This document shows, in pieces, positions 41,904 to 62,854 of a stretch of DNA of 64,000 bases. The first letter of the stretch is position 1; each line of letters opens with the position of its first letter. The DNA lies in the NCBI RefSeq assembly GCF_029309905.1, contig NZ_JARBJP010000005.1:62001-126000 (forward strand), in the 5' to 3' direction. Both the position numbers and the translations under genes were made by a program. The notes beneath the pieces are model-generated. The model did no database searches, was not told the origin of the DNA, and saw only the letters and a list, made by a program, of their open reading frames with translations. The DNA is from Brytella acorum. Its GTDB lineage: Bacteria; Pseudomonadota; Alphaproteobacteria; Acetobacterales; Acetobacteraceae.

Positions 41904-42020
41904 TGAAGAGTTGAAGAAAACAGACGAACCTCGGGCTTTCCCAACTGTTTCCCCCCCGACGTATCACGCTCATAGTGTCGAACCATGTCGCCATGACTGA
42001 TGCCCGGAGGGAAGAAGACC

Positions 42021-46049: not shown

Positions 46050-46063
46050 GGAATTAATGTTCT
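46050..46063. promoter_or_regulatory. RGAA-N6-TTCY palindrome before sugar porter (IolR-like site)
   Basis: GGAA-TTAATG-TTCT lies 254 bases upstream of the porter ATG in AT-rich DNA. It resembles the GGAA-N6-TTCC site of rhizobial RpiR-type IolR. A second GTTCT lies 31 bases earlier (46028), matching the spacing of the two sites before iolC. Confidence 0.5.
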
Positions 46064-46316
46064 ACATACTCCCATAGTAACGTTATGGATGTGAGATATG
46101 GCATCCGACACGAACATTCCGATTTCGTTCCCGGCATCTCAGAATTGCCGGGTGGCGGAAGGAAAGTGCCTGTGTCGGACTCAATTCTCAAGGAACGCCG
46201 GGCCAAGGATCTCTCCCGATGCCAGGCCCGAGCGGGCGACATCCTGACCATTCGCTCATCAGCCCAGGCCCAGAACTCCGCGTCTGACGCTGGAGATGCG
46301 TGGGGGAGAAAAAGAC

Positions 46317-47807
46317 ATGAACACGATTTCGGACGTGATTATGGTGAAGTCCGAGCGGCATGACGTCGCTTACGTGCTGAGAATATGCTCTGTCGCGGCA
46401 CTCGGAGGTATTCTTTTCGGCTATGATACGTCCGTCATATCGGGCGCGATCGGGCCGTTGCAGACGTTTTTCCACCTCTCTCCGGCAGCGACGGGATGGG
46501 CTGTCTCGAACGTGGTGGTGGGCTGCATATTCGGCGCCCTGGCATCGGGATGGCTCGCCCATCATCTCGGGCGTCGCATGACGCTCTTCGTCTGTGCGCT
46601 GCTGTTTTCGATTCAGTCCATAGGTGCGGCGCTGGCGCCGGATTTTTTCTGGTTCGTCCTTTATCGCATGCTGGGCGGCGTGGCCGTAGGCATCGCCTCG
46701 GCCGTATCTCCGATGTACATGTCCGAAGTTTCGCCCAAGGATATGCGCGGCCGGGCCTTGAGCATGGAGCAGTTCGCGATTGTTTTCGGGCAGGTCGTCG
46801 TTTTTATCGTCAACTACTTCATCGCGCGCACGGCTTCGACCGAGTGGTTGCAGACGATGGGTTGGCGCTGGATGTTCGCATCTGAAATCCTTCCCTGCAT
46901 CCTGTTCTGCGCCACGATTTTCCTGATCCCAGAATCTCCGCGCTGGCACATGCTCAAAGGCCGCGAGGAAGATGCGCGCAAGACTCTGACTCGCATTTCC
47001 AACGAACGTCATGCCGGAAGCCTGATGAACGAAATTCGCGAATCGATCGGATCTGAAGAAGGGCGGTCCAGTTTCGGTCTCGCCGGGCTTCTCCGCGATC
47101 GCAATGCGCGCTGGATTGTCTTCGTCGGTGCTGCCGTGGCCGCGCTTCAGCAGGTCACCGGTATCAACGTAATGATGTATTATGCACCGATGGTGCTGAA
47201 GACGACCAGTGGCAGCATTCAGGAAGCTCTTTTCCAGACCATTTGGATCGGCGTCTCCATGCTGGTGGGCTGCATTGTCGGCGCATGGATCGTCGATCGC
47301 AAAGGACGTCGGCCGCTGATTCAGTATGGATCGATCATTATGATGGTCAGCCTTCTGGTTGTTTCGTGGGCCCTTTATTCCCAGAGTACGGGTTTGCTTG
47401 CCCTTATTGGTATGCTTGGCTTCATGTTCGCCTTCGGATTTTCCTGGGGGCCGGTAGCGTGGATTCTGGTTTCTGAAATTTTCCCCAATCGCTTTCGTGC
47501 GATCGGCATGAGTGTGGCTGTGGCCTCCAACTGGGCGGCCAATTTCATGGTGGCGCAGGGTTTCCCGATGATCAGCCAGAACGCGTGGCTGAACGCGCAT
47601 TTTCATGGTGCTTTTTCGATGTGGCTCTTCGCGGCGCTGGGTGCCGTGGCGATGTGGTTCGTGATGCGATATGTGCCTGAAACGAAGGGTATTTCTCTCG
47701 AAAAAATCGAAGCGACCATGATGAGTCTGGCACCGGTGCGTCATGCGCCGATCCCCGATGAGATCGACACAGATGGCGTCAAGTCTCCGCTCACGCCGTC
47801 TCGCTGA
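46317..47807 (+). CDS. MFS sugar porter, candidate inositol/inosose transporter
   Basis: A 496-residue sugar-porter MFS protein from the ATG at 46317 (GGGGGAG upstream; 46296 is a poorer start). Family motifs: GGILFGYDTSVISGA (helix 1), GRRMTLF after helix 2, PESPRWHM at the central loop, QQVTGINVMMYYAP in helix 7, DRKGRRPLI after helix 8 and PETKGISLEKIE at the C-terminus. Twelve helices. The class carries xylose, glucose or myo-inositol. An IolR-like site upstream and the following dehydrogenase and iol genes make an inositol or inosose the likely substrate. Confidence 0.9.
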   Translation: MNTISDVIMVKSERHDVAYVLRICSVAALGGILFGYDTSVISGAIGPLQTFFHLSPAATGWAVSNVVVGCIFGALASGWLAHHLGRRMTLFVCALLFSIQSIGAALAPDFFWFVLYRMLGGVAVGIASAVSPMYMSEVSPKDMRGRALSMEQFAIVFGQVVVFIVNYFIARTASTEWLQTMGWRWMFASEILPCILFCATIFLIPESPRWHMLKGREEDARKTLTRISNERHAGSLMNEIRESIGSEEGRSSFGLAGLLRDRNARWIVFVGAAVAALQQVTGINVMMYYAPMVLKTTSGSIQEALFQTIWIGVSMLVGCIVGAWIVDRKGRRPLIQYGSIIMMVSLLVVSWALYSQSTGLLALIGMLGFMFAFGFSWGPVAWILVSEIFPNRFRAIGMSVAVASNWAANFMVAQGFPMISQNAWLNAHFHGAFSMWLFAALGAVAMWFVMRYVPETKGISLEKIEATMMSLAPVRHAPIPDEIDTDGVKSPLTPSR

Positions 47808-47945
47808 AACTTCGCGCGATAGTGACAGACCCCGGATCGGTGTCTGTCACTATCGTCACGAAACGACGGTATGAAACCATCCGCAACGCGCGAGGATGTG
47901 AGCGGCTGGAGCGCCTTATGTCTCTTTTGTATCGTGACATATACC

Positions 47946-47959
47946 GGAACATATGTTCT
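47946..47959. promoter_or_regulatory. RGAA-N6-TTCY palindrome before FAD dehydrogenase operon
   Basis: GGAA-CATATG-TTCT, with a perfect 12-base inner palindrome GAACATATGTTC, lies 72 bases upstream of the small-subunit ATG and 138 bases after the porter stop. Candidate binding site for the RpiR regulator at 51708. Confidence 0.6.
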
Positions 47960-48030
47960 CTCTTGCTCTGACGGATGGAATGCCGGTTGCCATCCAGGCA
48001 TGGATGTGGATCGGCTTCAGGAGGACGGGC

Positions 48031-48582
48031 ATGACGATGTCGAAGATGTTGCGTGAGGCGTGGCGTGCCGTTTCGAGCGGGGCTCGTCGGAGCGCGGGTC
48101 ACGTCGCAGGGACGCCGGAGCGGGATGCAGCACTCTCACCGATCGCACTTCCGGTGGACGGACATAAATTCTCGGATTTTTTGGCGCTTTCACAATTTCT
48201 GACGGAAAAGTCTGATCTCGATCCCGCCGTCGCAACACGTGCTTTTCTGGCGTTGACCGAAGCGGACGAGGCGTTCGAGGGGCATGCAAACCGCCTTTTG
48301 GCCGCGATCCAGGATGGTCGGCTTGCGGATATGGACGGGTTCGACAGCTTCATGGCCGCGCATCCCGCTCTCAGGTCCACGGCCATGCGCATCATTTCCG
48401 CCTGGTATCTCGGCTATACCGGAACGCCCGCTCCCCTCGACACAGAGGACGATGCGCGGTTCGTCGCTTATGAAAGCGCGCTCATGTTCCGGCCCACGGC
48501 GGACGCCACCGCCGTGCCATCCTATACGCGCGGCAGGACGGATTATTGGCGCCATCCGCCCGCGTCGCTTGCGACTGACTGA
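48031..48582 (+). CDS. FAD-dependent dehydrogenase small subunit (sorbitol/sugar dehydrogenase type)
   Basis: A 183-residue small subunit of the FAD-SLDH/gluconate dehydrogenase family. The ATG at 48031 follows AGGAGGA. The family core is present: DFLALSQFLTEKSDLDPAVATRAFLAL and MRIISAWYLGYTG with RFVAYESALMF before the WRHPP terminus. Family members usually start with a Tat signal that also exports the catalytic subunit; here residues 1-40 (MTMSKMLREAWRAVSSGARRSAGH) have no hydrophobic core. It precedes the GMC subunit by 29 bases. Confidence 0.85.
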   Translation: MTMSKMLREAWRAVSSGARRSAGHVAGTPERDAALSPIALPVDGHKFSDFLALSQFLTEKSDLDPAVATRAFLALTEADEAFEGHANRLLAAIQDGRLADMDGFDSFMAAHPALRSTAMRIISAWYLGYTGTPAPLDTEDDARFVAYESALMFRPTADATAVPSYTRGRTDYWRHPPASLATD

Positions 48583-48611
48583 AAACGTTCCGCGTTCGAC
48601 CAGAGAACATA

Positions 48612-50207
48612 ATGATGCCTATTCAATATGACGCCGACGTCATTGTCGTCGGTTCCGGCGCCGTAGGCAGCAATCTCGCCTATGAACTCGCAAAACAGGG
48701 AAAATCCGTCCTCATTCTGGAGGCGGGCGTATGGGTGCCGCGCTGGAAAATCGTGGAGAATTTTCGCACTTCGCCGCGCAAGGTCAATCGTAACGATCCC
48801 TATCCCAACGCCCCATGGGCGCCGAATTCCTATACGCCCGGCTATATTGAAAATACGGGAGAATTCGATTTCCGGCCCGGTATGTTGCGCCTTGTCGGTG
48901 GTACCACCTGGCATTGGGGCGGTGCTACGTGGCGTTTCCTGCCCAATGACATGAAGCTGCGCACGCTCTACGGCGTGGGCCGTGACTGGCCGCTTTCCTA
49001 TGATGAATTGGAGCCGTATTACACGCGGGCCGAATATAATCTCGGCGTTTCCGGTTCCGATACGCAGGACCAGTCCGGTCAGCGGCGCGGCGCGGCCTAT
49101 CCGCCGCGCTCCGCGCCATATCCTGTGCACAACGAGGAAGAAACCTACTATTTCCAGCGTTTGAAGGAACGCATCGGCGCGGAAGGATACGAGTTTCTGC
49201 ATGAGCCGCATGTGCGGACCAACAGGCCGTATGACGGTCGGCCCGCGTGCTGCGGGAACAATAACTGCATGCCGGTTTGTCCGATCGGCGCCATGTATTC
49301 CGGCGAAGTCCACGCGAAACATGCGCAGGCGCAGGGCGCGCGCGTCATTCCCGACGCCACGGTATTCAGGATCGAAAAAGGCGACGGCGGGAAAATCGCC
49401 GCCGTGCATTATCGTACGTCCCTGGGGAATGATGCGCGCCTGACAGCACGCTATTTCGTCATGGCCTGTAACGGGCTGGAAACGCCCAAACTTCTGTTGA
49501 TGTCCGACGTCGCCAATTCTTCGGACCAGGTCGGACGCAATCTGATGGATCACACCGGCATCGGCTTGCAGTTCCTGGCGGATGAACCGCTATGGACCGG
49601 ACGCGGCCCCATCCAGCAAGGTGGCGTGTTCAACTGGCGGGACGGCGCGTTTCGAAGCGAGCATGCGGCGATCAAGCATGCGATCAACAATGCCGTGCCC
49701 AATCAGGAAGTGACGCGCATTCTGCTGGAACGTGGCGTGGTCGGAAAAAAACTCGATGAACAGATCCGGCATATGTCCGCGCGATGGGTCGAATTTTCAA
49801 CAACGTTCGAAATGCTGCCCCATGCCCATAACAGGGTGCAGCCCTCCACGATCCGCACAGATGCACTCGGCATTCCCACCCTGAAAGTCCATTACGAAAC
49901 GGATGACTATATCGCGAGAGGCGCGGCCAGGGCGCGGGAAGATTTCGCCCGCTTCGTCGCCATCATGGGCGGCACCGTTATCGAGGATCATACCGGCTGG
50001 CAAAACCGCGATCATCTGATGGGCACGGTACTCATGGGCGACGATCCGCGCGATTCCGTCGTCAATCACGAGTGTCGGAGCTGGGATCACAGCAATCTCT
50101 TCATGGCGACTACGGGCGTGATCCCGGCCAGCGGGGTGGTCAATCCCACGCTTGCGGCGATCGCTCTTGCAATCCGTTCCGCTGATATTATCGCGAAAGA
50201 GATCTGA
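48612..50207 (+). CDS. FAD-dependent dehydrogenase catalytic (GMC) subunit
   Basis: A 531-residue flavoprotein. The N-terminal dinucleotide fold GSGAVGSNLAYELAKQG with LILEAG binds FAD. The GGTTWHWGGATWRFLPNDM block and the Cys cluster CCGNNNCMPVCPIGA (about residues 213-227), which in FAD glucose dehydrogenase holds a 3Fe-4S cluster, place it in the membrane-bound sugar/polyol dehydrogenase group. The C-terminal HLMGTVLMGDDP and GVVNPTLAAIALAIRSAD blocks contain the active-site His/Asn region. It would oxidise a polyol or cyclitol and pass electrons through the cluster to the cytochrome subunit. In context an inositol is likely. Confidence 0.93.
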   Translation: MMPIQYDADVIVVGSGAVGSNLAYELAKQGKSVLILEAGVWVPRWKIVENFRTSPRKVNRNDPYPNAPWAPNSYTPGYIENTGEFDFRPGMLRLVGGTTWHWGGATWRFLPNDMKLRTLYGVGRDWPLSYDELEPYYTRAEYNLGVSGSDTQDQSGQRRGAAYPPRSAPYPVHNEEETYYFQRLKERIGAEGYEFLHEPHVRTNRPYDGRPACCGNNNCMPVCPIGAMYSGEVHAKHAQAQGARVIPDATVFRIEKGDGGKIAAVHYRTSLGNDARLTARYFVMACNGLETPKLLLMSDVANSSDQVGRNLMDHTGIGLQFLADEPLWTGRGPIQQGGVFNWRDGAFRSEHAAIKHAINNAVPNQEVTRILLERGVVGKKLDEQIRHMSARWVEFSTTFEMLPHAHNRVQPSTIRTDALGIPTLKVHYETDDYIARGAARAREDFARFVAIMGGTVIEDHTGWQNRDHLMGTVLMGDDPRDSVVNHECRSWDHSNLFMATTGVIPASGVVNPTLAAIALAIRSADIIAKEI

Positions 50208-50210
50208 TCC

Positions 50211-51692
50211 ATGACCGTCCGTAAAATTGCGGGTCTGGTGCTTTGCGGGATCCTTATGGGCAGCGGGCCGGCGAAGGCGTCGGAAAGCGCTTCGATTTTT
50301 TCGTCGCAGACGGGGCCTGGAGAAAACCTGGCGCAGCTTATCGCGCGCGGCGCATATGTAGCGCGGACAGCCGATTGCGCGGCCTGTCACGTCGGCGCGG
50401 ATGGCGCGCCCTATGCGGGCGGGTATGAAATCGCATCGCCACTAGGCACGATCATTGCCACGAATATTTCTCCCTCGCGCACGTTCGGAATAGGCGGCTG
50501 GTCGGAAGAGGTTTTCGCGCGTGCTCTTCGCATGGGCGTCACGCCGCACGGAAACCTGTATCCGGCCATGCCTTATCCATCCTATGCCGGAATGTCGGAC
50601 GAGGACGTCCACGCGCTTTATATCTATCTCACCCACGCCGTGAAACCGGTGGAGCGGGGGCCGACTGTGGGCACCAGATTGTCGTTTCCTTTCAATCTGC
50701 GCACGCTCATGACAGGCTGGAACGCTGTTTTCTCACGTCAGAAGCCCATGGCTCATGCGGCGACGGCGCCCGGAGGGATCGAGCGCGGGCGTTATCTGGT
50801 CGAGGTGGTCGGGCACTGTTCGAGTTGTCATACGCCGCGCAATTTCGCCATGGCGGAGGATCGGTCGCAATTCCTGGGCGGTGCCGCAGTGGGCGGATGG
50901 TTCGCGCCCAACATCACGTCTGATCCGATCAGCGGCATCGGGGGATGGAGCGAGGACGAACTGGTCACCTATCTGCGCACCGGTGCGGTTGCGGGGAAAA
51001 GCCAGGCGGCCGGTGGCATGGCGGAAGCGATCGAGCATGGTCTGCGACATCTCGCGGATGACGATCTGAGAGCGATCGCCCGCTACCTGAAATCGGTACC
51101 GCCGATCCGTGAAGCGGGCCAGAGAGAACCGGCCTACGGCGTCGCCTTCGCCCAGCCCTCCAATTTCGAAGCGCTCAATCTCGGTCATGATCGCTCGCCG
51201 GCCGCCATGAGGGACGGCGCGAGCACGCAGGGCGAGCAGATTTACGTGGCGGCCTGCGCGGCCTGTCATCAACTGCATGGCGAAGGGACGTCGGACCAGT
51301 TCTATCCCTCCCTGTATGCCAATACGGCGACGGGCGGAACGTCGCCCCGCAATCTCGTCATGGCGATCGTCAAGGGCGTGCATCGTGAAACGAATGACGG
51401 CACGGTGGTCATGCCCGCTTTTGGAGCCGAGTTGAACGACGCGCAGATCGCGGCGGTCTCCAATTACGTGCTCAGCCGCTTCGGCAATCCGCATCTGAGT
51501 GTCTCGGCCGCGGAGGTGGCGGGATACAGGATCGGGCGGGAAGAGCCGCTTGTCGTCAAACTCTTCGGCCCGGCCGGTGTCGTGGCCGCGCTTGGCGGCT
51601 TGGCGGCGGGGCTGGCGGGCATGTCTCTTGCGCGGAGAAGGCGAGGCGATGGATCCGACGGGGCCGTTGCGAAAATGAGGATCGAGGATTGA
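50211..51692 (+). CDS. Tri-heme cytochrome c subunit of FAD dehydrogenase
   Basis: A 493-residue cytochrome with a Sec signal (residues 1-25) and three heme c sites: CAACH at 56-60, CSSCH at 203-207 and CAACH at 349-353. Each lies in a class I cytochrome domain; repeated GGWSEEVFARALRMG-like segments follow the first two hemes. A C-terminal hydrophobic helix (about 455-477) followed by Arg residues anchors it to the membrane. It accepts electrons from the FAD/3Fe-4S subunit and reduces ubiquinone. It begins 3 bases after the GMC stop. Confidence 0.94.
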   Translation: MTVRKIAGLVLCGILMGSGPAKASESASIFSSQTGPGENLAQLIARGAYVARTADCAACHVGADGAPYAGGYEIASPLGTIIATNISPSRTFGIGGWSEEVFARALRMGVTPHGNLYPAMPYPSYAGMSDEDVHALYIYLTHAVKPVERGPTVGTRLSFPFNLRTLMTGWNAVFSRQKPMAHAATAPGGIERGRYLVEVVGHCSSCHTPRNFAMAEDRSQFLGGAAVGGWFAPNITSDPISGIGGWSEDELVTYLRTGAVAGKSQAAGGMAEAIEHGLRHLADDDLRAIARYLKSVPPIREAGQREPAYGVAFAQPSNFEALNLGHDRSPAAMRDGASTQGEQIYVAACAACHQLHGEGTSDQFYPSLYANTATGGTSPRNLVMAIVKGVHRETNDGTVVMPAFGAELNDAQIAAVSNYVLSRFGNPHLSVSAAEVAGYRIGREEPLVVKLFGPAGVVAALGGLAAGLAGMSLARRRRGDGSDGAVAKMRIED

Positions 51693-51707
51693 GGCGTGTG
51701 TCGAATG

Positions 51708-52571
51708 CTATTTCCGGCGTTCGGCGATGGCGGTCGCGAGCGTCATGATCAGCACCATCGTCGCGGCATTGGAGCGGAAGCCCTGGAAATCGGCTTCCAT
51801 GACGTCGAGCCACAATCCCGTCGATGGAATGACCGGACTGGCCGGGCTGTCGGTGACGGCGACGATCGGCACGCACCGACGCTCAAGTTCCTTGAACAGT
51901 TCAACCGTGCGCGGCGCATAGGCGGCGAAACTGATGACGATCGCCGCGTCGCGCGGTCCGGCGGACAGCATGGCTTCCTCCTCCATGCCGGATTCCAGTC
52001 CGATCACCTGATGGAGGATTTCCATTTTTGTCAGCAGATAGGAAAGGTAGCGCGTGACGGGCATGGAACGACGCAGACCCAGGATGTAAATACGTTGCGC
52101 GCCAACGAGACGGGTGATCGCTTTTTCGAGCTTTTTCCGGTCGAGATGGTGGTGCAATGCGTCCAGAGATGCGATCGCGGCGTGGTAAAATCCGTCCAGG
52201 ACGGCCACGGATGTGGCGGGTCCGCCATCCTCGCCATGCAGGGCATGCAGCCGTTCACCATAAGACGTGGATCGGCTGCGAATACGCTCGCGAAAAATTG
52301 CCTGCATTTCCGAAAAGCCGTTCAGGCCGAATGTGCGGGCGAACCGGATGACCGTGGAGGGCTGCACCTGGGCATCCGCAGCCAGACTGCTTACGGTTCC
52401 CAAGGCGATATCGTCCGGCTTTTTCAGGATGGTATCCGCGATCTGACGCAGACGGGTCGGCAGGGTCGCATAGCGTGCCCGCAATTTCTGATGGAACGCG
52501 TCGTAGCCGTCTGAGACGAGGTCGGGCTCGTGAGTCGCGGGCTGTGCTGTGCGGACATGCGTGGACGACAT
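51708..52571 (-). CDS. RpiR family transcriptional regulator (IolR-like)
   Basis: A 287-residue RpiR regulator. The start at 52571 (MSSTHVRT) has GGAG 9 bases upstream; the frame continues to 52688. The N-terminal helix-turn-helix (GTVSSLAADAQVQPSTVIRFARTFGLNGFSEMQAIFRERI) is followed by a SIS domain (about residues 120-265, with IYILGLRRSMPVTRYLSYLL and VISFAAYAPRT) that senses a sugar phosphate. RpiR proteins named IolR repress inositol genes in rhizobia. It lies between the dehydrogenase operon (convergent) and iolC (divergent), the classical position for the local regulator. Confidence 0.92.
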   Translation of the reverse strand: MSSTHVRTAQPATHEPDLVSDGYDAFHQKLRARYATLPTRLRQIADTILKKPDDIALGTVSSLAADAQVQPSTVIRFARTFGLNGFSEMQAIFRERIRSRSTSYGERLHALHGEDGGPATSVAVLDGFYHAAIASLDALHHHLDRKKLEKAITRLVGAQRIYILGLRRSMPVTRYLSYLLTKMEILHQVIGLESGMEEEAMLSAGPRDAAIVISFAAYAPRTVELFKELERRCVPIVAVTDSPASPVIPSTGLWLDVMEADFQGFRSNAATMVLIMTLATAIAERRK

Positions 52572-52648
52572 GGGCAGTGGCTCCGATCTGAAATGTCCCT
52601 TTTTGAAGGGAAGGCCCAAGCCAATGCGGCTTCTGAGACGTTGCAATA

Positions 52649-52662
52649 TCACCATACGGTGA
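52649..52662. promoter_or_regulatory. Inverted repeat TCACC-N4-GGTGA
   Basis: A perfect 5-bp inverted repeat lies in the rpiR/iolC divergent promoter, 31 bases before the first RGAA-N6-TTCY site. Possible second operator or CRP-like element. Confidence 0.35.
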
Positions 52663-52679
52663 AATGAGTGAAAAAGAAA

Positions 52680-52693
52680 AGAAAGCACGTTCT
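52680..52693. promoter_or_regulatory. RGAA-N6-TTCY site 1 before iolC
   Basis: AGAA-AGCACG-TTCT, followed by ATATG. Its TTCT half is 31 bases from the TTCT half of site 2, about three helical turns. GTTCTATATG is exactly repeated in both sites. Confidence 0.6.
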
Positions 52694-52710
52694 ATATGAT
52701 GACAAATAAC

Positions 52711-52724
52711 AGAACGTGTGTTCT
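52711..52724. promoter_or_regulatory. RGAA-N6-TTCY site 2 before iolC
   Basis: AGAA-CGTGTG-TTCT lies 36 bases before the iolC ATG. Together with site 1 it forms a tandem operator in the divergent rpiR/iolC promoter. Confidence 0.6.
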
Positions 52725-52760
52725 ATATGGCCGACAGATCAACCTCAGGGGTTACAAGAG

Positions 52761-54674
52761 ATGGAATCGTCTGATTTGGACGTCATCGCGATAGGCCGCT
52801 CCTCCATTGATATCTACGGTCAGCAGATCGGTGGCCGTCTTGAAGATATGGCCAGCTTCAGCAAGGGCGTGGGCGGTTGCCCCGCCAATATCGCGATCGG
52901 CACGTCGCGCCTCGGTCTGCGTTCCGGTCTTGTGACCCGCGTGGGCAATGAAAATTTCGGCCGTTTCATTCGTGAGCAGCTGGGTCGTGAAGGCGTCGTC
53001 ACGGATGGTATCGTCACAGATCCGGAACGTCTTACGGCGCTGGCCATTCTCGGCGTGCGTGACCAGAACAGTTTTCCGCTCCTGTTCTATCGGACGGATT
53101 GCGCGGACGCGGCCCTGAACGAAGAGGACATCGATCCTGCTTTTATGCGGAGGGCGAACGTCGTCGTCGTCAGCGGGACGCATTTTTCGCGCCCACACAG
53201 CGCGGCGGCCCAGCGCAAGGCCATGAAGATCGTCCATGAAAATGGCGGCAAGGTCGCGTTCGATATCGATTACCGTCCCAATCTGTGGGGCCTCGCGGCG
53301 ATCGGCGAAGGGGAGTCACGATATGTCCGCTCCGATGAGGTCACGGATCACCTGATGACCATCCTCCCCGAATGCGATCTGATCGTGGGGACGGAAGAGG
53401 AGTTGCACATCGCGGGCGGAAGCGAGGATACGCTGACCGCAATCCGCAATATTCGCGCGGTTTCCAAAGGTACGATCGTCTGCAAGCGTGGCCCGATGGG
53501 CTGCGTGGTGTTCGAGGACGAAATTCCCGACGACCTTCAGGACGGCATCAAAGGGGCGGGCTTCCCGATTGAAGTCTACAACACGCTCGGCGCCGGGGAT
53601 GCCTTCATGTCCGGTTTCCTGCGGGGATGGGTTCGCGGCGAACCGCTGGCCGATTGCTGCACCTACGCCAATGCCTGTGGGGCTTTTGCGGTATCGCGCC
53701 TGCTTTGCTCGTCGGAAATCCCGACCTGGGAAGAATTGCAGTATTTTCTGAAAAACGGCAGCGAACATCGCGCGCTGCGTCACGATGCGGAGCTTAATCA
53801 TCTCCATTGGGTGACGACGCGCCGTCATCAGCCGACGCCGATCATGGCGTTTGCATGCGATCATCGTCTGCAACTTGAAGACATCGCCCGCGAAGCGGGT
53901 GCTTCGTTTGAAAAAATTCCGGAATTCAAGAAGCTGGTGATCGCGGCGGCCACGCGCGTGGCTCAGGGACGTCCCGGCTTCGGCGTATTCATGGACGGTA
54001 TTTACGGACAGGAAGCCCTGTTCGCGGCGTCGCATGAAAAACTGTGGATTGCGCGACCGATCGAAAAGACGGGTTCACGCCCTCTGGAATTCGAATGCGG
54101 CGGCAGCCTTGGCGCGCATCTGACGGAATGGCCGACGGAACAGACCGTCAAATGCCTTGCCTTCTATCATCCGGACGATCCGGAAGATTTGAAGCTCCGA
54201 CAGGAGCGCGAGCTTTTCCGCGCCTATGACGCCTGTCGCAGGATGGGTCGCGAAATCCTTATCGAGATTATCGCGGGCAAAAATGGTCCGCTCGGGCCGG
54301 ACAGCGTCGCGCAGGTTCTTGACCGGCTCTACGACATCGGCATCAAACCGGACTGGTGGAAACTCGAAGGGCAGAAAAATCCGGCGGCGTGGCAGGCCAT
54401 CGCCCGCGTGATCGAGGCGCGGGATCCTCATTGCCGTGGCGTGGTGATTCTTGGTCTCGATGCGCCGATCGAAGATCTGCTTGAGGCTTTCGAAGCGGCG
54501 GCCGTGACGCCCTGGGTCAAGGGTTTCGCGATCGGCCGCACGATTTTCGGCCCGTCGGCACGGGCATGGCTCGCCGGTAAACTGGATGACGAAAGCGTGG
54601 TTGCGGAAATGGCTCGGCGCTTCGCGACGTTCGTCGAAGCCTGGACGGCCATCGAAAAGCGTCGGGCGGTCTGA
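52761..54674 (+). CDS. iolC: 5-dehydro-2-deoxygluconokinase fused to DUF2090 (IolC-IolJ-like)
   Basis: A 637-residue two-domain protein from the ATG at 52761. Residues 1-330 are a PfkB kinase (DVIAIGRSSIDIYGQQIGGRLEDM..., VGGCPANIAIG, and TLGAGDAFMSGFLRG near 275 with the catalytic Asp) that phosphorylates 5-dehydro-2-deoxy-D-gluconate. Residues about 345-637 are DUF2090 (PIMAFACDHRLQLEDIA, GREILIEIIAGKNGP), a barrel suspected to be the 6-phospho-5-dehydro-2-deoxygluconate aldolase. The fusion is common in proteobacterial inositol operons and would join two consecutive steps. It is the first gene of the iol operon. Confidence 0.95.
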   Translation: MESSDLDVIAIGRSSIDIYGQQIGGRLEDMASFSKGVGGCPANIAIGTSRLGLRSGLVTRVGNENFGRFIREQLGREGVVTDGIVTDPERLTALAILGVRDQNSFPLLFYRTDCADAALNEEDIDPAFMRRANVVVVSGTHFSRPHSAAAQRKAMKIVHENGGKVAFDIDYRPNLWGLAAIGEGESRYVRSDEVTDHLMTILPECDLIVGTEEELHIAGGSEDTLTAIRNIRAVSKGTIVCKRGPMGCVVFEDEIPDDLQDGIKGAGFPIEVYNTLGAGDAFMSGFLRGWVRGEPLADCCTYANACGAFAVSRLLCSSEIPTWEELQYFLKNGSEHRALRHDAELNHLHWVTTRRHQPTPIMAFACDHRLQLEDIAREAGASFEKIPEFKKLVIAAATRVAQGRPGFGVFMDGIYGQEALFAASHEKLWIARPIEKTGSRPLEFECGGSLGAHLTEWPTEQTVKCLAFYHPDDPEDLKLRQERELFRAYDACRRMGREILIEIIAGKNGPLGPDSVAQVLDRLYDIGIKPDWWKLEGQKNPAAWQAIARVIEARDPHCRGVVILGLDAPIEDLLEAFEAAAVTPWVKGFAIGRTIFGPSARAWLAGKLDDESVVAEMARRFATFVEAWTAIEKRRAV

Positions 54675-54715
54675 GGCCGGACGCTTCCAGATCGGGATTT
54701 TTGAGGATCATGACG

Positions 54716-56572
54716 ATGAAAACGATCCGTTTAACCATGGCTCAGGCGCTGGTGCGCGCCATAATCGCGCAGAAGACGGAGATTGACGGGACGATCCGAC
54801 CGTTCTTTCCCGGCATATGGGCGATTTTCGGGCATGGCAACGTGGCTGGTCTCGGTGAGGCGCTTCAGGAGAAGCGCGACGCCTTGCCGACCTATCGCGG
54901 ACATAACGAGCAGGGCATGGCTTTTGCCGCGACGGCCTTTTCCAAGGCGGTGCGGCGTCGTCAGGTGATGGCCGTGACCAGTTCGATCGGACCCGGCGCC
55001 CTTAACATGGTGACGGCGGCGGGTGTGGCGCATGTCAATCGCATTCCGCTGCTCCTGCTGCCCGGCGATGTGTTCGCCAACCGGATTCCAGACCCCGTCC
55101 TGCAACAGATCGAGGATTTCGGAGATGGCACGATCAGCGCCAACGACGCCTTCCGGCCGGTTTCGCGCTATTTCGACCGTATCGCGCGTCCGGAGCAGTT
55201 GATTCCGGCCTTCCAGCAGGCCATGCGTGTATTGACCGATCCCGCTGATTGCGGACCGGTCACACTCGCATTGTGTCAGGATACGCAGGCCGAGGCCTTC
55301 GATTATCCCGAGAGCTTTTTTGCCGAGCGCATTCACCGTCTGCGTCGTATCGCGCCGGATCAGCAGGAACTCGAAGAGGCAGCGGCGCTGCTTCGCGCCG
55401 CGAAAAACCCGCTCGTCATCGCAGGCGGTGGCGTGCTGTATTCGGGTGCCGAAGCGGAACTCGCGGCGTTTTGCGCCGCGAGAGGAATACCGCTCGGCGA
55501 GACGCAGGCCGGCCGTTCGTCCGTTGCGACGTCGCATCCCATGAATATGGGCGGCATCGGCGTCAGCGGTAGTTCGGCGGCAAACGCCATGGCGGAGGAC
55601 GCCGATCTCGTGATCGCGATCGGCACGCGTCTACAGGATTTCACCACGGGTTCCTGGGGACTGTTCAGGAACGCCGACGCCCGGATTCTGGCGTTGAACG
55701 TGCAGCCTTTCGACGTGGCCAAACATGCATCCGTCCCGCTGGTGGCGGATGCCAGGACGTCTCTGGCGGCGCTGGATGCAAAGCTCGGCGCATGGAAGGC
55801 GGACGCGGCATGGACGGCCAAGGCCGAGCGTGAGCGCAGGGCGTGGCTTGAAATGTCGGCGCGGTATCAGGACGCGCCAGCGGCGAGCCAGACCGGCCTT
55901 CCGACGGACGCCCAGGTGATCGGTGCGGTGCAGCGCGCGACGCGGCCGACCGATACGGTCGTGTGCGCGGCGGGCGGTCTGCCAGCCGAATTGCAGAAGC
56001 ACTGGCGCGCGGAGCAGCCGGGCGGCTATCATATGGAATATGGTTTTTCCTGCATGGGTTACGAGCTGGCCGGCGCGCTTGGCGTGAAAATGGCCACGCC
56101 CGAGCGCGAAGTCGTCGTGATGCTCGGGGATGGTTCGTTCCTGATGCTCAATGCCGAAATCGCGACCTCCGTCATGCTGGGGCGGAAACTGATCATCGTG
56201 CTGCTCGACAATCATGGTTACGGCTGCATCAACCGCCTTCAGAACCATACGGGCGGCGCGCCGTTCAATAATCTCTGGCAGGACTGCAAGCAGGAGATTT
56301 TCCCGGAAATCGACTTCGTGCAGATTGCCCGTGGCCTCGGCGCGCGCGCGGAGAAGGTGGCGACTGTCGAGGAACTGACCAAGGCCGTGACCCGCGCCCG
56401 TAGCGCCGATCGCACCAGCGTTATTCTGATCGACACGGACCCCAAACCCACGACGGAAGACGGTGGCGCATGGTGGGACGTGGCGGTGCCGGAAGTGTCC
56501 ACGCGTGAGCCGGTCCGCGAAGCGCGCTCGACCTATGAGCGTCTGCGCGGCATGCAGCGTCTGGCGAACTGA
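54716..56572 (+). CDS. iolD: 3D-(3,5/4)-trihydroxycyclohexane-1,2-dione hydrolase
   Basis: A 618-residue ThDP enzyme. The start at 54716 has GAGG 9 bases upstream; 54710 is also possible. ThDP-family domains run in order: N-terminal Pyr domain (YRGHNEQGMAFAATAFSK with the catalytic Glu), middle domain (LVIAGGGVLYSGAEAEL, IGTRLQDFTTGSWGLF) and C-terminal PP domain with the GDGSFLMLNAEI...DNHGYG metal/ThDP motif. It hydrolyses the ring dione to 5-deoxyglucuronate, the ring-opening step of inositol degradation. It lies 41 bases after iolC. Confidence 0.97.
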   Translation: MKTIRLTMAQALVRAIIAQKTEIDGTIRPFFPGIWAIFGHGNVAGLGEALQEKRDALPTYRGHNEQGMAFAATAFSKAVRRRQVMAVTSSIGPGALNMVTAAGVAHVNRIPLLLLPGDVFANRIPDPVLQQIEDFGDGTISANDAFRPVSRYFDRIARPEQLIPAFQQAMRVLTDPADCGPVTLALCQDTQAEAFDYPESFFAERIHRLRRIAPDQQELEEAAALLRAAKNPLVIAGGGVLYSGAEAELAAFCAARGIPLGETQAGRSSVATSHPMNMGGIGVSGSSAANAMAEDADLVIAIGTRLQDFTTGSWGLFRNADARILALNVQPFDVAKHASVPLVADARTSLAALDAKLGAWKADAAWTAKAERERRAWLEMSARYQDAPAASQTGLPTDAQVIGAVQRATRPTDTVVCAAGGLPAELQKHWRAEQPGGYHMEYGFSCMGYELAGALGVKMATPEREVVVMLGDGSFLMLNAEIATSVMLGRKLIIVLLDNHGYGCINRLQNHTGGAPFNNLWQDCKQEIFPEIDFVQIARGLGARAEKVATVEELTKAVTRARSADRTSVILIDTDPKPTTEDGGAWWDVAVPEVSTREPVREARSTYERLRGMQRLAN

Positions 56573-56579
56573 GGTTCGT

Positions 56580-57494
56580 ATGATGGAGCCAATCATGCCG
56601 CAGCAGAAAAAAAAGGTCAGGATCGGCGCCAACCCGATCATCTGGAGCAGCGACGACCTGCCTTCCATCGGGGGCACAACATCGCTTGCGACATGTCTGG
56701 ACCAGGCCCGTCGTGCCGGGATCGAGGGGATGGAGCTTGGGCACAAGTTTCCGACCGATGTGGAGGGTATGCGCGCGGCGCTCGCGCCCTATGGACTGGC
56801 TTTCATCTCCGGCTGGTGGTCGCTCAATCTGCTGACGCGCAGTGCGGAAGCGGAAATCGAGGCGCTTCAGCCACGGCTCGCCTTGCTCAAGGGCATGGGA
56901 TGCAAGGTCTGCATCGCATGCGAGACCTCCAATGCGATCCATTCGGATTTCGACAAACCCCTATCGGAACGGCCGGTCCTGAGCGAACACGAATGGACGA
57001 CGTTCACGCAACGTCTGACAGCGGTAGCAGAGTATCTGCAAAGCGAGGGGATCGATCTCGTCTATCATCATCACATGGGCACGATCGTGCAGTCCCGTGA
57101 GGATATCGGACGGCTGATGGATCTCACCGGCCCGGCCGTCAAGCTTCTGCTCGATACGGGACACGCTCTGTGGGGCGGGTCCGATCCCGCCGAACTGGCG
57201 CGCACCTATCATGCACGTATTCGTCATCTGCATGGAAAGGATATCCGCCCGATCAACCGGGCGAGGGCCGATGTCAACGACTGGAGTTTCCTGCGTGCGG
57301 TCCTTTCGGGTGTGTTTACGGTGCCTGGAGACGGCTGCATCGATTACGTGCGTATTTTAAACCAACTGCCGGATTATTCAGGCTGGATCGTTCTGGAAGC
57401 CGAGCAGGATCCGGATATTGCGGACCCGCTGATTTATGCACGGATGGGCCGTAATTATCTGGTCGATGTTCTCACACAGACGGGGCACAGATAA
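56580..57494 (+). CDS. iolE: 2-keto-myo-inositol (inosose) dehydratase
   Basis: A 304-residue TIM-barrel dehydratase from the ATG at 56580 (GAGG 5 bases upstream); the frame extends upstream into iolD. Signature blocks: GANPIIWSSDDLPSIGG at the start, GIEGMELGHKFPTD, YHHHMGTIVQSREDI and LLLDTGHALWGG, whose His, Glu and Asp residues bind the divalent metal. It removes water from 2-keto-myo-inositol to give the substrate of IolD. The stop overlaps the iolB start (TAATG). Confidence 0.97.
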   Translation: MMEPIMPQQKKKVRIGANPIIWSSDDLPSIGGTTSLATCLDQARRAGIEGMELGHKFPTDVEGMRAALAPYGLAFISGWWSLNLLTRSAEAEIEALQPRLALLKGMGCKVCIACETSNAIHSDFDKPLSERPVLSEHEWTTFTQRLTAVAEYLQSEGIDLVYHHHMGTIVQSREDIGRLMDLTGPAVKLLLDTGHALWGGSDPAELARTYHARIRHLHGKDIRPINRARADVNDWSFLRAVLSGVFTVPGDGCIDYVRILNQLPDYSGWIVLEAEQDPDIADPLIYARMGRNYLVDVLTQTGHR

Positions 57495-58294
57495 TGTCTT
57501 CAGAACTACGCGTTCATTCGCATGCCCGCGATGAGGCCAAACGGACAGTGAAGATCACCCCGCAGAGTGCGGGCTGGAAGTTCATTGATTTCGAAGTGCG
57601 CAGGCTGGAGCCGGGAGAGTCGACCGAGGGGAACACGGAAGGCACGGAAGCCTGTCTCGTTCTCGTCAGCGGCAAGGCGCGGATCGCGGGCGCGGGCCAG
57701 GATTTCGGTCTGATGGGCGAGCGGATGAATCCGTTCGACGGTCTGCCGTGGTCGGTTTACCTGCCGCCACGGAGCACCTGGACGATCGAGGCCGAAACGC
57801 CGGTCGAGGTTGCCATCTGCCGCTCTCCGGCGACGGGCAAGTTTCCCGCGCGCGCGATCCTTCCCGACGAGGTCGGTGAAGTCGCGCGGGGGGAGGGTAC
57901 CAATCAGCGTTTCATCCGCAACATTCTTCCTGATAACGCACCAGGCGAGACGCTGCTGGTCGTTGAAGTTATAACCCCGGGCGGTCACTGGTCGAGTTAT
58001 CCGCCTCACAAGCACGATACGGACGACTTCCCCAACGAGACCTATCTCGAGGAGACGTATTATCACCGTCTCAAACGGGGCAGCGGTTTCGCCCTCCAGC
58101 GCGTTTATACAAAGGATGGGTCTCTCGACGAGACCATGGCCGTGTCGGATGGGGACGTCGTGCTCGTGCCCCGGGGCTATCACCCGGTCGGCGCACCGCA
58201 CGGGTTTGATCTTTATTATCTGAACGTGATGGCGGGTCCGCGCCGTGTCTGGAAGTTTTCCATGGACCCGGATCAGGCTCATCTGCCGTATTGA
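57494..58294 (+). CDS. iolB: 5-deoxy-glucuronate isomerase
   Basis: A 266-residue bicupin isomerase, coupled to iolE by an overlapping start. The second cupin carries the metal ligands in SSYPPHKHDTDDFPNETYLEETYYHR and the late His in VPRGYHPVGAPHGFDLYYLNVMAG. It converts 5-deoxy-D-glucuronate to 5-dehydro-2-deoxy-D-gluconate, which IolC then phosphorylates. Length fits the family. It is the fourth and last canonical gene of the operon before an intergenic gap with two IolR-like sites. Confidence 0.97.
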   Translation: MSSELRVHSHARDEAKRTVKITPQSAGWKFIDFEVRRLEPGESTEGNTEGTEACLVLVSGKARIAGAGQDFGLMGERMNPFDGLPWSVYLPPRSTWTIEAETPVEVAICRSPATGKFPARAILPDEVGEVARGEGTNQRFIRNILPDNAPGETLLVVEVITPGGHWSSYPPHKHDTDDFPNETYLEETYYHRLKRGSGFALQRVYTKDGSLDETMAVSDGDVVLVPRGYHPVGAPHGFDLYYLNVMAGPRRVWKFSMDPDQAHLPY

Positions 58295-58307
58295 GAACCG
58301 GGTTTCT
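58294..58307. promoter_or_regulatory. RGAA-N6-TTCY palindrome after iolB
   Basis: AGAA-CCGGGT-TTCT begins on the last base of the iolB stop codon and may drive control of the downstream accessory genes from 58397. It is followed by a TTCTC/GAGAA hairpin (58320-58333). Confidence 0.4.
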
Positions 58308-58329
58308 TAAGAGACGGGCTTCTCGCAAG

Positions 58330-58343
58330 AGAATACGGCTTCC
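58330..58343. promoter_or_regulatory. RGAA-N6-TTCY palindrome before tautomerase gene
   Basis: AGAA-TACGGC-TTCC, 36 bases after the previous site and 54 bases before the tautomerase ATG. Its second half matches the rhizobial TTCC form exactly. Confidence 0.4.
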
Positions 58344-58396
58344 ATTTTTCCGATCGTCGATTTTCGGATCGCCGATTTTTCTGAAGGATATTTCCC

Positions 58397-58804
58397 ATGC
58401 CTCTTCTGCATTTCCATATTCTCGAAGGCCGCAACGAGGCCGAAATCAGGAAGCTCCTCGACACGGCGCATGAAGCCATGCTCGAGGTCTTTCAGGTCCC
58501 GCGTCGCGACCGGTATCAGCTCGTCTCCGAGCACAAGCCGTCTCACATGATCGTGGAAGATACCGGTCTCGACATTCCGCGTACGGAAAAGGTCGTGCTG
58601 CTCCAGATGTTCAGCCGCCCGCGTGGACCGGAAAAGACAGCCGAATTCTACAAGCTGTTGACGGATCGGCTCAAAGCGGAATGCGGCATCGAGCCCTCTG
58701 ACGTCATGGTGTCCGTGGTCGAGAACGAAGATGCGCACTGGTCTTTCGGCAATGGTCGGGCGCAGTTCCTGACGGGCGAACTGGGCGGCAAGCCCAAGGG
58801 CTGA
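58397..58804 (+). CDS. Tautomerase family protein
   Basis: A 135-residue protein of the two-domain-like Tautomerase_2 group (4-oxalocrotonate tautomerase superfamily). Mature proteins use Pro as the N-terminal base after Met removal; here MPLLHFHILEGR supplies Pro2. The block FQVPRRDRYQLVSEHKPSHMIV is characteristic, and VVENEDAHWSFGNGRAQFLTGEL closes it. AGGAT is upstream of the ATG. In this operon it may isomerise an inosose or keto-sugar; that is inference from position only. Confidence 0.9.
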   Translation: MPLLHFHILEGRNEAEIRKLLDTAHEAMLEVFQVPRRDRYQLVSEHKPSHMIVEDTGLDIPRTEKVVLLQMFSRPRGPEKTAEFYKLLTDRLKAECGIEPSDVMVSVVENEDAHWSFGNGRAQFLTGELGGKPKG

Positions 58805-58905
58805 CAGGGCCAACCACACGGCTCGGGCTCCTCTTCGGGCCGTGTGCCGGGAACAGTGCCGACGCGGCAGGCGGGAGGCGTCAGGCGCCATAGGGATAGA
58901 GTTCA

Positions 58906-59694
58906 ATGACAGAAGAAAACGGTTTCACTCTGGCCGTCTGCGCCGAGATGGTTTTCCGCGACCTTCCCATGACCGACCGTGTGCGTGAAATTTCCGCACG
59001 CGGGTTTTCCGTCGAGATATGGGACTGGACGCGTCACGATATCGATGCGCTGGCCGCGACGGGCGCCGATTTTACGTCGATGACCGGCTATATTCGCGGC
59101 ACGCTGGCGGATGATGTGGGCGCCGATGAACTCCTGGCGACAGCGGCGGAGTCCATTCCCATCGCCAGGAAGCTCGGAATCCCACGCCTGAACCTGCATG
59201 GAACGGGGCTCGATCCCAACGGTTTGCCCCTCAAGCCGTCATGCGGCGAGACCGGCGCGATGTGGCTCAAGGCCTATGACACGCTGAGCCGCATCGCGGA
59301 ACTCGGTGAAAAGCATGACGTGATGTTCGTGCTGGAGAACCTCAATGCACAGGTGGATCATCCGGGTGTACCATTCGGCACGGCACAGGCATGTTACAGC
59401 CTGATCAAAGCTGTCGATCACCCTGCGCTGCGCATGATGCTGGATCTGTACCACGCCCAGATCGGGGAAGGAAACCTGATTGCGCTCCTGCGTGAGACCT
59501 TCCCTTATATCGGCGAAATTCAGGTGGCGGATGTTCCGGGGCGATGCGAGCCGGGGACCGGTGAGATCAATTATCCGGCCATTGCCCGTGAACTCCGTAA
59601 GCTCGGTTATCGGGGCACGATCGGCATGGAAGCCTGGGCATCGGAAGATGACGTGCTGGCGCTGGACCGTTTCAGGGCCGCGTTTACGGTATGA
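58906..59694 (+). CDS. Hydroxypyruvate isomerase-like TIM-barrel protein
   Basis: A 262-residue AP-endonuclease-2-type TIM barrel. The early CAEMVFRDLPMTDRV segment and GFSVEIWDW, the metal-site Glu in FVLENLNAQVDHPG, the RMMLDLYHAQIGEGNL block and the late Glu in GTIGMEAWASEDDV match Hyi/OtnI isomerases. IolI inosose isomerases share this fold, so it may interconvert inososes rather than hydroxypyruvate. It lies 101 bases after the tautomerase in the same direction. Confidence 0.88.
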   Translation: MTEENGFTLAVCAEMVFRDLPMTDRVREISARGFSVEIWDWTRHDIDALAATGADFTSMTGYIRGTLADDVGADELLATAAESIPIARKLGIPRLNLHGTGLDPNGLPLKPSCGETGAMWLKAYDTLSRIAELGEKHDVMFVLENLNAQVDHPGVPFGTAQACYSLIKAVDHPALRMMLDLYHAQIGEGNLIALLRETFPYIGEIQVADVPGRCEPGTGEINYPAIARELRKLGYRGTIGMEAWASEDDVLALDRFRAAFTV

Positions 59695-59843
59695 TTTTTC
59701 CAGTGCGGCAATCCGTGAACGTCTCGTGGCCTTTATCTTAGACTTGTGCATGGGTCGTGCGTGTTCCCGGCTCGCCTGAATATGGCCGCACCGCACGCGT
59801 GAGCCGTTTTATCGTCGGTCTCGGTATGGAATGGAGAGATTTT

Positions 59844-60338
59844 ATGACCCTTGCACAAAATCTTGGCGCCATTATCGCGCAGGAAAAAGGACTCGTATTT
59901 TCCAGTTTCGATGAAAATATCGCCTGGAAAATCGGATGTATGCTGCATGAGCGGGCCGTGACGGAAACTCTTCCCCTGGCGATTGACATACGTTTTTTCG
60001 ACCGGCAGCTTTTCTTCGCGGCGACGCATGGCGTGGTCGCGGATAATCACGACTGGGTGCGACGCAAGGCGAGGACGGTGCAGCGCTTTCTTTGCAGTTC
60101 CTATCGCGTGGCGCACGAACTGGCCCTCGAAGAGACCAATATCGAGCAACGGTATTTTCTGTCTCCGGTGGAATACGCCGCATGCGGCGGCGGCTTCCCT
60201 ATTACGATCAGGAACGTTGGTGTCATCGGCAGCGTCGTCGTTTCCGGTCTGCCGGATCGGCGGGATCATGAACTCGTCGTGGATGCGCTGTGTGACGCGC
60301 TGGGAAAGGCGCGGGCTGATTTCCTCCTGCCGACCTGA
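59844..60338 (+). CDS. UPF0303 / HbpS-like (GlcG-type) protein
   Basis: A 164-residue UPF0303 protein. The ATG at 59844 has GGAGAG 6 bases upstream; longer frames lack this. Family blocks are KGLVFSSFDENIAWKIG, PLAIDIRFFDRQLFFAA, DNHDWVRRKARTVQRF and GGGFPITIRNVGVIGSVVVSGLPDRRDHELVV. The fold is shared with HbpS/GlcG; the function is unknown, though such genes often sit in sugar or polyol catabolic operons as here. Confidence 0.87.
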   Translation: MTLAQNLGAIIAQEKGLVFSSFDENIAWKIGCMLHERAVTETLPLAIDIRFFDRQLFFAATHGVVADNHDWVRRKARTVQRFLCSSYRVAHELALEETNIEQRYFLSPVEYAACGGGFPITIRNVGVIGSVVVSGLPDRRDHELVVDALCDALGKARADFLLPT

Positions 60339-60392
60339 TCGCCGATCACGGGATCTCCGCGGGTGAACTGTAAATTGAAGGACATGAGGGAT

Positions 60393-61478
60393 ATGGCGGG
60401 ATCTGGTATCCGTGTCGGGCTGATCGGCTATGGTTTTGTCGGAAAAACCTTCCATGGACCGATGATTGCGGCGACGTCGGGCATGACGCTTGTGGCCGTG
60501 GCGTCGTCTCGTCCCCGGGAGGTCGGGCGGGATTATCCGGATGTGGAAGTGGTTCCGACGCCGGAGGATCTGATCGCCCGTGATGATCTGGATCTCGTCG
60601 TGATCGCCTCACCCAATGAGACTCACCGTCTCCTCGCGGAGGCGGCACTGCGGTCCGGAAAAAACGTCCTTGTCGACAAGCCTTTCATGCTGTCCCTGTC
60701 GGACGCACGATCTGTCGTCGAAACCGCGCGGCTCTGTGGAAAGAGTGTCTCCGTTTTCCAGAATCGCCGATGGGATAGTGATTTCCTGGGCGTGAAGTCA
60801 GTCATCGATTCAGGTCGGCTCGGGCGGATCGCTCATTTCGAGTCGCATATCGAGAAATTTGACCCTGTTCCCGGCCCGGGCTGGCGCGACGCTTTTGTGC
60901 CCGGCGCGGGTATGTGGTTTGATCTGGCGCCTCACATGGTGGATCAGGCGCTTCTGCTGTTCGGATTGCCAACAGCGGTCATGGCGGAGATTGCCGTCAT
61001 TCGTCCGGAGAGTGAGGTCGATGACTGGTTCGAGGTCATCCTTCGATATCCGACCCACCGCGTCACGCTTCATGGCAGCATGGTCGTTGCGGGCGGGACA
61101 TCCCGCTTCAGCGTGCATGGTGCCGCGGGATCGCTGATCAAACACGGCGCGGATCGTCAGGAGGATCGTCTCAAACAGGGATGCATTCCCGGTTCGCCAG
61201 GTTTCGGTGACGATGACGATGCCATGATGTTCCATAAAAGCGACGGAGAGACCGAAACTCTGCCGACGCCGCCGGGCGATCAGATGGCGTTTTACCGGGC
61301 CCTTGCGGCCGCCCTGCGTGGAGAAAAGCCCAATCCCGTCTCGACGAACCAGGCGCTGGGCGTCATGGCCGTGATTGAAACGGCGATCGAAGCCTCAAAA
61401 CAGGGGCGCACCTTGCCTCTGCCCCTCAGCGCGGAAGAACGGGCTGGCTGGGCGCGTGCCGAAGAGGCGCTGACATAA
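60393..61478 (+). CDS. Gfo/Idh/MocA oxidoreductase, IolW-like (scyllo-inositol dehydrogenase type)
   Basis: A 361-residue NAD(P)-dependent dehydrogenase. The start at 60393 has AAGGA 10 bases upstream; GTG 60363 and ATG 60384 are alternatives. The Rossmann motif GLIGYGFVGKTFHGPMI, VAVASSRPREVG, the DKPFMLS motif with the Gfo/Idh Lys, and SVFQNRRWDSDFLGVK match IolW-type (NADP-dependent scyllo-inositol) and YdgJ-type proteins more than IolG. It could interconvert an inosose and an inositol. It is the last gene of the island; pntAB follows. Confidence 0.88.
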   Translation: MAGSGIRVGLIGYGFVGKTFHGPMIAATSGMTLVAVASSRPREVGRDYPDVEVVPTPEDLIARDDLDLVVIASPNETHRLLAEAALRSGKNVLVDKPFMLSLSDARSVVETARLCGKSVSVFQNRRWDSDFLGVKSVIDSGRLGRIAHFESHIEKFDPVPGPGWRDAFVPGAGMWFDLAPHMVDQALLLFGLPTAVMAEIAVIRPESEVDDWFEVILRYPTHRVTLHGSMVVAGGTSRFSVHGAAGSLIKHGADRQEDRLKQGCIPGSPGFGDDDDAMMFHKSDGETETLPTPPGDQMAFYRALAAALRGEKPNPVSTNQALGVMAVIETAIEASKQGRTLPLPLSAEERAGWARAEEALT

Positions 61479-62850: not shown

Positions 62851-62854
62851 TCCG

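Follow-up and report, generated by a model that had tools for sequence, protein, structure and literature searches.

Here, we analysed a stretch of 64,000 nucleotides of the Brytella acorum genome (contig NZ_JARBJP010000005.1, positions 62,001 to 126,000; hereafter the window), in which the interval 46317-61478 forms an inositol island. Its genes follow one another in the order sugar porter, small subunit of family PF12318, GMC flavoprotein, tri-haem cytochrome, RpiR regulator (on the minus strand), iolC-DUF2090, iolD, iolE, iolB, tautomerase-family protein, TIM barrel, HbpS-like protein and Gfo/Idh/MocA dehydrogenase. The best-supported reading of this arrangement, which we consider probable though by no means secure, is that the flavin adenine dinucleotide (FAD) trio of small subunit, flavoprotein and cytochrome stands in for IolG. 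The likeliest role of the tautomerase-family protein, judged from its homology, is to convert malonic semialdehyde to acetaldehyde and CO2, instead of IolA.

The core genes iolB, iolC, iolD and iolE all score above the curated cut-offs of their models and lie in a single run on the plus strand. These are iolC, a kinase fused to a DUF2090 aldolase (52716..54674, start probably 52761; NF047869, 711 bits, cut-off 600), iolD (54701..56572; TIGR04377, 934 bits, cut-off 715), iolE (56463..57494, true start probably further in; TIGR04379, 359 bits, cut-off 290) and iolB (57494..58294; TIGR04378, 329 bits, cut-off 205). The search for iolG (TIGR04380) in the whole genome (3.32 Mb in 42 contigs, 99.8% complete) returned three matches, none of which passes; the best reaches 131.8 bits against a cut-off of 355, and it scores higher with a UDP-N-acetylglucosamine dehydrogenase model. 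This cut-off is no clean divider, since an Asaia IolG-type gene also misses it (191 bits), though it reaches 519 of 540 with NF052679. No gene of the genome passes the iolA model (TIGR01722) either; the best match, with 303 bits against a cut-off of 448.5, fits other aldehyde dehydrogenase models better. The first-pass annotation had listed the porter, the FAD trio, RpiR, iolC-DUF2090, iolD, iolE, iolB and accessory genes, all of which were recovered by family models, and its statement that iolG and iolA are lacking holds genome-wide by the curated cut-offs; what it had missed in the same interval are an IolW-like Gfo dehydrogenase and the decarboxylase. Compared with the iolBCDE pathway of Bacillus subtilis and of a survey (PMC9430895), the island shares IolB, IolC, IolD and IolE above cut-off, a DUF2090 aldolase fused to the kinase and an RpiR regulator, but lacks IolG and IolA above cut-off and adds the FAD trio, the decarboxylase and the IolW-like gene.

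The trio occupies the plus strand ahead of these genes. It consists of the small subunit (47953..48582; PF12318, 134 bits), the GMC flavoprotein as catalytic subunit (48612..50207; PF05199, PF00732) and the cytochrome c subunit (50211..51692; three CxxCH motifs, PF00034, a leader and a C-terminal hydrophobic stretch), which in one run make up the gene set of a flavoprotein-cytochrome c dehydrogenase complex. It is preceded by the porter of the SP family (46296..47807, plus strand; PF00083, 359 bits; TIGR00879, 367 bits, cut-off 237.8), which probably serves inositol or inosose uptake, and followed by the RpiR gene (51708..52571, minus strand; PF01380, PF01418; the open reading frame extends to 52688, and the start at ~52571 was picked by eye). 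A plus-strand frame overlapping RpiR (51696-52514) matched no family in profile searches.

We tie the trio to inositol because it adjoins RpiR and iolC in other genera, because it is complementary to IolG, and because an operator model picks its promoter. The relatives of the genome are acetic acid bacteria. In Gluconacetobacter tumulicola LMG 27725 (G363) and in genome G116, the block of porter, small subunit, GMC and cytochrome genes likewise adjoins RpiR and iolC. Genome G046 has the porter, the small subunit and the cytochrome, with no GMC gene, adjoining RpiR-iolC-iolB-decarboxylase; its complete trio (GMC 75% identical) is located elsewhere. At its island locus (L209, 6457-8219) the GMC gene is gone from between the retained small subunit and cytochrome, and the trio elsewhere bears a twin-arginine (Tat) signal and an RpiR-type operator. 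In Asaia and in Swaminathania salitolerans (G008), a more distant trio (~57%) is separated by 14-19 kb from iolD, in whose cluster an IolG-type gene is retained. In the Asaia loci L060 (13077-14261) and L058 (13553-17888), a second iolE (330 bits, cut-off 290) comes after this distant trio; in the Asaia genome G285, an IolG at 356.1 of 355 bits also follows, in a second small inositol set.

The complementarity with IolG was assessed in 397 genomes of the family, with thresholds of E 1e-150 for iolD, 1e-45 for IolG-like genes and 1e-60 for GMC. Matches to the GMC protein at this level or better occur in 77 of the 397 genomes; 18, our own included, carry a copy at at least 54% identity (G326 in two pieces), and seven carry one at at least 71%, the close trio (G000, which is our own, G363, G352, G046, G338, G213 and G116; a half-length 71% match in G135 was not counted). 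We found iolD in 131 genomes (124 above cut-off) and an IolG-like gene in 142 (118 above cut-off). The close trio is present in 3 of the 8 iolD genomes without an IolG-like gene and in 0 of the 123 with one (Fisher p 0.00015, kinship ignored). The 54-61% type occurs in 7 of these 123, and the wider definition gives p 0.015. The eight IolG-less genomes are G000, G046 and G363, which have the close trio, G322, G125 with a broken iolD, and three fragmented assemblies, G074, G166 and G393.

The region 5' of iolC contains two RGAA-N6-TTCY palindromes at a distance of 31 bp. A pair of this kind is also present in G363 and G116, in Swaminathania and in three genomes of Asaia; a rhizobial IolR has the motif GGAA-N6-TTCC. 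From 15 sites at 8 loci of other genomes we built a weight matrix, deliberately excluding the sites of the window. Its four best sites in the 64 kb are at 52711 (24.3), 52680 (20.8), 47946 (17.6) and 46050 (16.2), the fifth scoring 9.8, and these four lie at the promoters of iolC (as the pair 52680..52724, between RpiR and iolC), of the small subunit (47946..47959, rank 3) and of the porter, where the strong 46050 site has a weak partner (46019, 9.4) 31 bp away (46019..46063). In 200 shuffles in 500-base blocks, the best, second, third and fourth scores never exceeded 21.7, 15.3, 14.3 and 13.1. Operator pairs also stand 5' of the porter in G363 (21.6, 18.7) and G116 (22.8, 16.3), and in G046 a site scoring 25.7 stands 5' of the separate trio, ~1 Mb away from the island. 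The trio thus appears to belong to the inositol regulon.

The tautomerase-superfamily protein (58397..58804, plus strand) is a homologue of the malonate semialdehyde decarboxylase 2aag (E 2.9e-45, 57% identity), which we take to come from a haloalkene breakdown pathway of Pseudomonas pavonaceae; the window homologue differs from it in sitting in an iol operon. The two proteins have the same length and all eight active-site positions checked are identical (presumably Pro1, Asp37, Arg73, Arg75, Trp114, Phe116, Phe123 and Leu128), and in copies from 14 other loci these positions are likewise conserved as far as the alignment reaches. The gene of G. tumulicola possesses a tandem operator of its own. 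It was found in 17 of the 73 iolD-bearing genomes counted, and an iolA within 10 kb of iolD occurs in 0 of these 17 and in 16 of the 56 without the decarboxylase (Fisher p 0.016, kinship ignored). Methylmalonate-semialdehyde dehydrogenase (MMSDH) above cut-off is found nowhere in 5 of the 17, our genome included, and nowhere in 16 of the 56. The count left out G342 and G390, whose clusters were not retrieved, and G116, G352, G338, G213 and G125, in which iolD is lacking or broken; G046, with its iolD at another place, was scored as decarboxylase-bearing. Short contigs hold some of the clusters scored as decarboxylase-less, and a second iolD copy was not included in every case, so the absence is weak evidence there. 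Searches of an open-access library turned up no description of a malonate semialdehyde decarboxylase in inositol breakdown among the titles listed; the one paper that named the enzyme together with inositol concerned xylanase and amylase production in B. subtilis.

A number of observations, taken up in this and the following paragraphs, speak against the replacement of the two enzymes as proposed here. The IolG threshold of E 1e-45 was of our own choosing, and the best match of our genome lies at 2.6e-38. The close trio is also present in G352, G338 and G213, where iolD was not found, and the G116 island is cut by a contig end. The Gluconobacter genome G322 carries an iol cluster but lacks both the trio and any IolG-like gene. 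With respect to IolA, 12 of the 17 decarboxylase genomes retain MMSDH elsewhere; the complementarity of iolA and decarboxylase is partial over whole genomes and clean only at the level of the cluster. Finally, in the Gluconobacter and Asaia loci scanned with the matrix, no operator of comparable strength lies at the trio promoter (locus bests up to 14.4, at other positions), and no strong one was found at the trio promoters of the iolD-less close-trio genomes. Because the close trio occurs in genomes where iolD was not detected, and because a strong operator is missing there and in Asaia, the general substrate of the trio need not be inositol.

Another possibility is that the trio belongs to the ordinary flavoprotein-cytochrome dehydrogenases and oxidises a different polyol or a sugar acid (sorbitol, 2-ketogluconate or other), lying beside the iol genes by chance or co-use. 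Trio orthologues at 62-78% are present in Gluconobacter, Commensalibacter, Erwinia, Tatumella, Pseudomonas, Rhizobium and others with no iol genes in the examined flanks, as this would have it. Beside the trio outside acetic acid bacteria, no shared pathway genes stood out. A review of acetic acid bacteria names gluconate, 2-ketogluconate, fructose and sorbitol dehydrogenases as flavoprotein-cytochrome complexes, and for inositol only an enzyme with pyrroloquinoline quinone (PQQ) (PMC9171043). The window trio has, like fructose dehydrogenase (FDH), FAD glucose dehydrogenase (GDH), 2-ketogluconate dehydrogenase (KGDH) and gluconate dehydrogenase, a small subunit of PF12318 or an equivalent, a GMC protein with a CC-N5-C motif and a tri-haem cytochrome in identical gene order; it differs from them in its separate clade, in an Asp instead of Asn before the catalytic His, in its iol neighbours and in the lack of a Tat signal in the island small subunits. 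The nearest solved structures are those of FAD glucose and fructose dehydrogenases, and Cys213/214/219/223 (of the 3Fe-4S cluster), His468 and Asn511 of the window GMC align with FDH and GDH. The residue preceding the catalytic His is Asp467; of 105 rows, 51 have an Asp at this position, including the full-length ones of the close clade, whereas the FDH, GDH and KGDH rows carry Asn. In a Burkholderia enzyme the equally placed Asn475 is inferred to recognise the sugar (PMC6719666). In a tree of 49 GMC rows, which holds no sequence of the FAD sorbitol dehydrogenase (SldL), the window protein groups in one clade with those of G363 and G116 (100/100), the G046 trio comes next (93/94), and fructose, glucose and 2-ketogluconate dehydrogenases lie across a 100/100 branch. 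A published kgdS primer matches exactly in two Gluconobacter genomes, where the adjoining GMC is only 43% identical to that of the window and belongs to another clade, and we rejected 2-ketogluconate dehydrogenase as the identity of the trio; the kgdS primers had no convincing match in the other loci scanned first. Together with the linkage, the operators and the IolG pattern, this makes a substrate other than inositol, with the iol genes as mere neighbours, quite an improbable explanation. Our genome encodes a further, distant GMC (31%) next to a small protein (contig C2, L007, 1474-3647); on visual inspection neither of the two shows an evident Tat leader.

A further difficulty concerns the site at which the trio would act. 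A twin-arginine motif with a hydrophobic stretch was found in 0 of 4 island small subunits, in contrast to 55 of 57 distinct ones outside islands; we saw no leader in the window GMC. The island cytochromes retain their leader; three of the four show three haem motifs, and that of G116 shows two in the part that was read. Moreover, the GMC frame is broken in G116, a draft genome, and the island GMC is absent in G046. Tat-less small subunits would mean that the dimer is cytoplasmic, or that it is exported by an unseen route, or that the complex is decaying in some lineages. The earlier proposal, in which the trio makes an inosose and the porter imports it, is thus borne out in its link to inositol, since the trio appears to belong to the inositol regulon by its operators and its close clade is found, among iolD genomes, only in some of those lacking an IolG-like gene; periplasmic oxidation followed by inosose import is partly contradicted by the missing signals, and we consider the periplasmic scheme doubtful. 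The porter may carry inositol and not inosose, because in Asaia and Swaminathania its orthologues (70-73%) belong to clusters that include an IolG-type gene; this fits a cytoplasmic dimer. A tentative extension, possible but well short of probable, is that the catalytic dimer is cytoplasmic or on the inner face of the membrane, with a short basic N-terminus in exchange for its Tat leader, and takes over directly from the cytoplasmic IolG as an inositol dehydrogenase that depends on flavin. Combined with the decarboxylase, such a route would turn inositol into dihydroxyacetone phosphate (DHAP) and acetaldehyde with no step reducing nicotinamide adenine dinucleotide (NAD).

The loss of the Tat signal, and a GMC broken or missing in 2 of 4 islands, would also agree with a decaying remnant, the inosose being made by a PQQ membrane dehydrogenase. 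Our genome has three loci of the TIGR03074 type, one of them in the window (23580-26075, minus strand; 945 bits, cut-off 832.65). Non-synonymous divergence (dN) between islands argues otherwise: it is 0.12-0.16 for the GMC and the porter and 0.11-0.18 for iolC and iolD (synonymous divergence being saturated), so that the first two are constrained like the iol genes; the cytochrome stands at 0.25-0.26 (against G116 and G363), and the small subunit changes fastest (0.41-0.55). In addition, a search of G046 with the window PQQ protein found nothing at E 1e-40, and our three loci group by similarity with a type found at 77-85% in 10 of 17 other genomes searched, a glucose-dehydrogenase-like type and an SldA-like type. 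The window protein resembles quinate dehydrogenase in length and is perhaps that enzyme; its assignment as an inositol dehydrogenase is not supported. The PQQ inositol dehydrogenase of Gluconobacter oxydans 621H is GOX1857, which, according to two reports, carries out the reaction proposed here for the trio, from myo-inositol to 2-keto-myo-inositol with electrons passed to the respiratory chain, but is a quinoprotein of an unrelated family (PMC8102297, PMC9171043). A PQQ group (L185, L191, L192) not seen in our genome might be GOX1857. The G322 locus L163 has a complete iol cluster including the decarboxylase, and the genome has another PQQ dehydrogenase group (L191) that might supply inosose. 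We regard a PQQ source of inosose beside a dying trio as very unlikely in our organism.

The main rival to the trio is the IolW-like enzyme, the YvaA/IolW-type Gfo/Idh/MocA dehydrogenase at the end of the island (60363..61478, plus strand). It scores 86 bits with the iolG model (cut-off 355) and 373 with the PRK11579 model NF008607 (cut-off 330), and its PDB matches are 3e82, 3kux and YvaA of B. subtilis (3gfg/3gdo), which we take to be IolW. PDB match and subfamily model place it in the same Gfo/Idh/MocA subgroup as IolW, from which it differs in lying inside an iol island. This enzyme could be the true replacement of IolG, a cytoplasmic, NADP-linked inositol dehydrogenase, with the trio acting on some other substrate useful under the same regulator. 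The gene lies within the iol operon, the enzyme requires no export, and such a gene is located in or beside the very islands that carry the trio: among 41 matches in the 397 genomes, the closest, from G116 (66%) and G363 (57%), are both inside islands and a 46% relative is beside that of G046. However, homologues at 37-54% are scattered over genomes both with and without an IolG-like gene, and IolW of B. subtilis is described as specific for scyllo-inositol, which it produces from inosose (PMC3176187). We consider such a role for the Gfo enzyme unlikely, if worth keeping in mind.

The remaining genes of the interval lie between iolB and the Gfo gene on the plus strand: a candidate TIM-barrel isomerase or epimerase (58906..59694; PF01261, under every NCBIfam cut-off, with weak PDB matches to epimerases) and the HbpS-like protein (59757..60338; PF03928; NF002696, 189 bits, cut-off 146), lookalikes of which, judged by eye, are also found close to the trio at five loci of Gluconobacter (L051, L053, L071, L072 and L073; cluster c6). 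Directly 3' of the Gfo gene, at 61678-64000, the transhydrogenase gene pntA and further genes run off the window; pntA was not seen beside the Gfo gene in G363. Just before the island (41169-45630), pirin-like, amidohydrolase, aldo-keto reductase and major royal jelly protein (MRJP)/gluconolactonase-like genes are oriented in the same direction.

With the trio in the place of IolG, the picture would be that of an acetic acid bacterial inositol regulon under its own RpiR, in which the first enzyme, IolG, and the last, IolA, are both replaced. The porter would import inositol (or inosose), and the GMC and small subunit would oxidise inositol to inosose, with the iron-sulphur cluster handing electrons on in the direction of the tri-haem cytochrome and quinone. 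The IolW-like enzyme would interconvert scyllo-inositol and the same inosose, which IolE, IolD, IolB and IolC-DUF2090 would convert to DHAP and malonic semialdehyde, and the predicted flux would end with decarboxylation of the latter to acetaldehyde and CO2.

If confirmed by experiments, this would be a new way to run a familiar inositol pathway. The decarboxylase suggests concretely how an iol operon could do without iolA, with acetaldehyde as the predicted product. A flavin route would extend the flavoprotein-cytochrome complexes to a further class of substrate and would be useful for making inososes and scyllo-inositol and for enzyme electrodes, and the Tat-less small subunits raise the clean question of where such a complex works.

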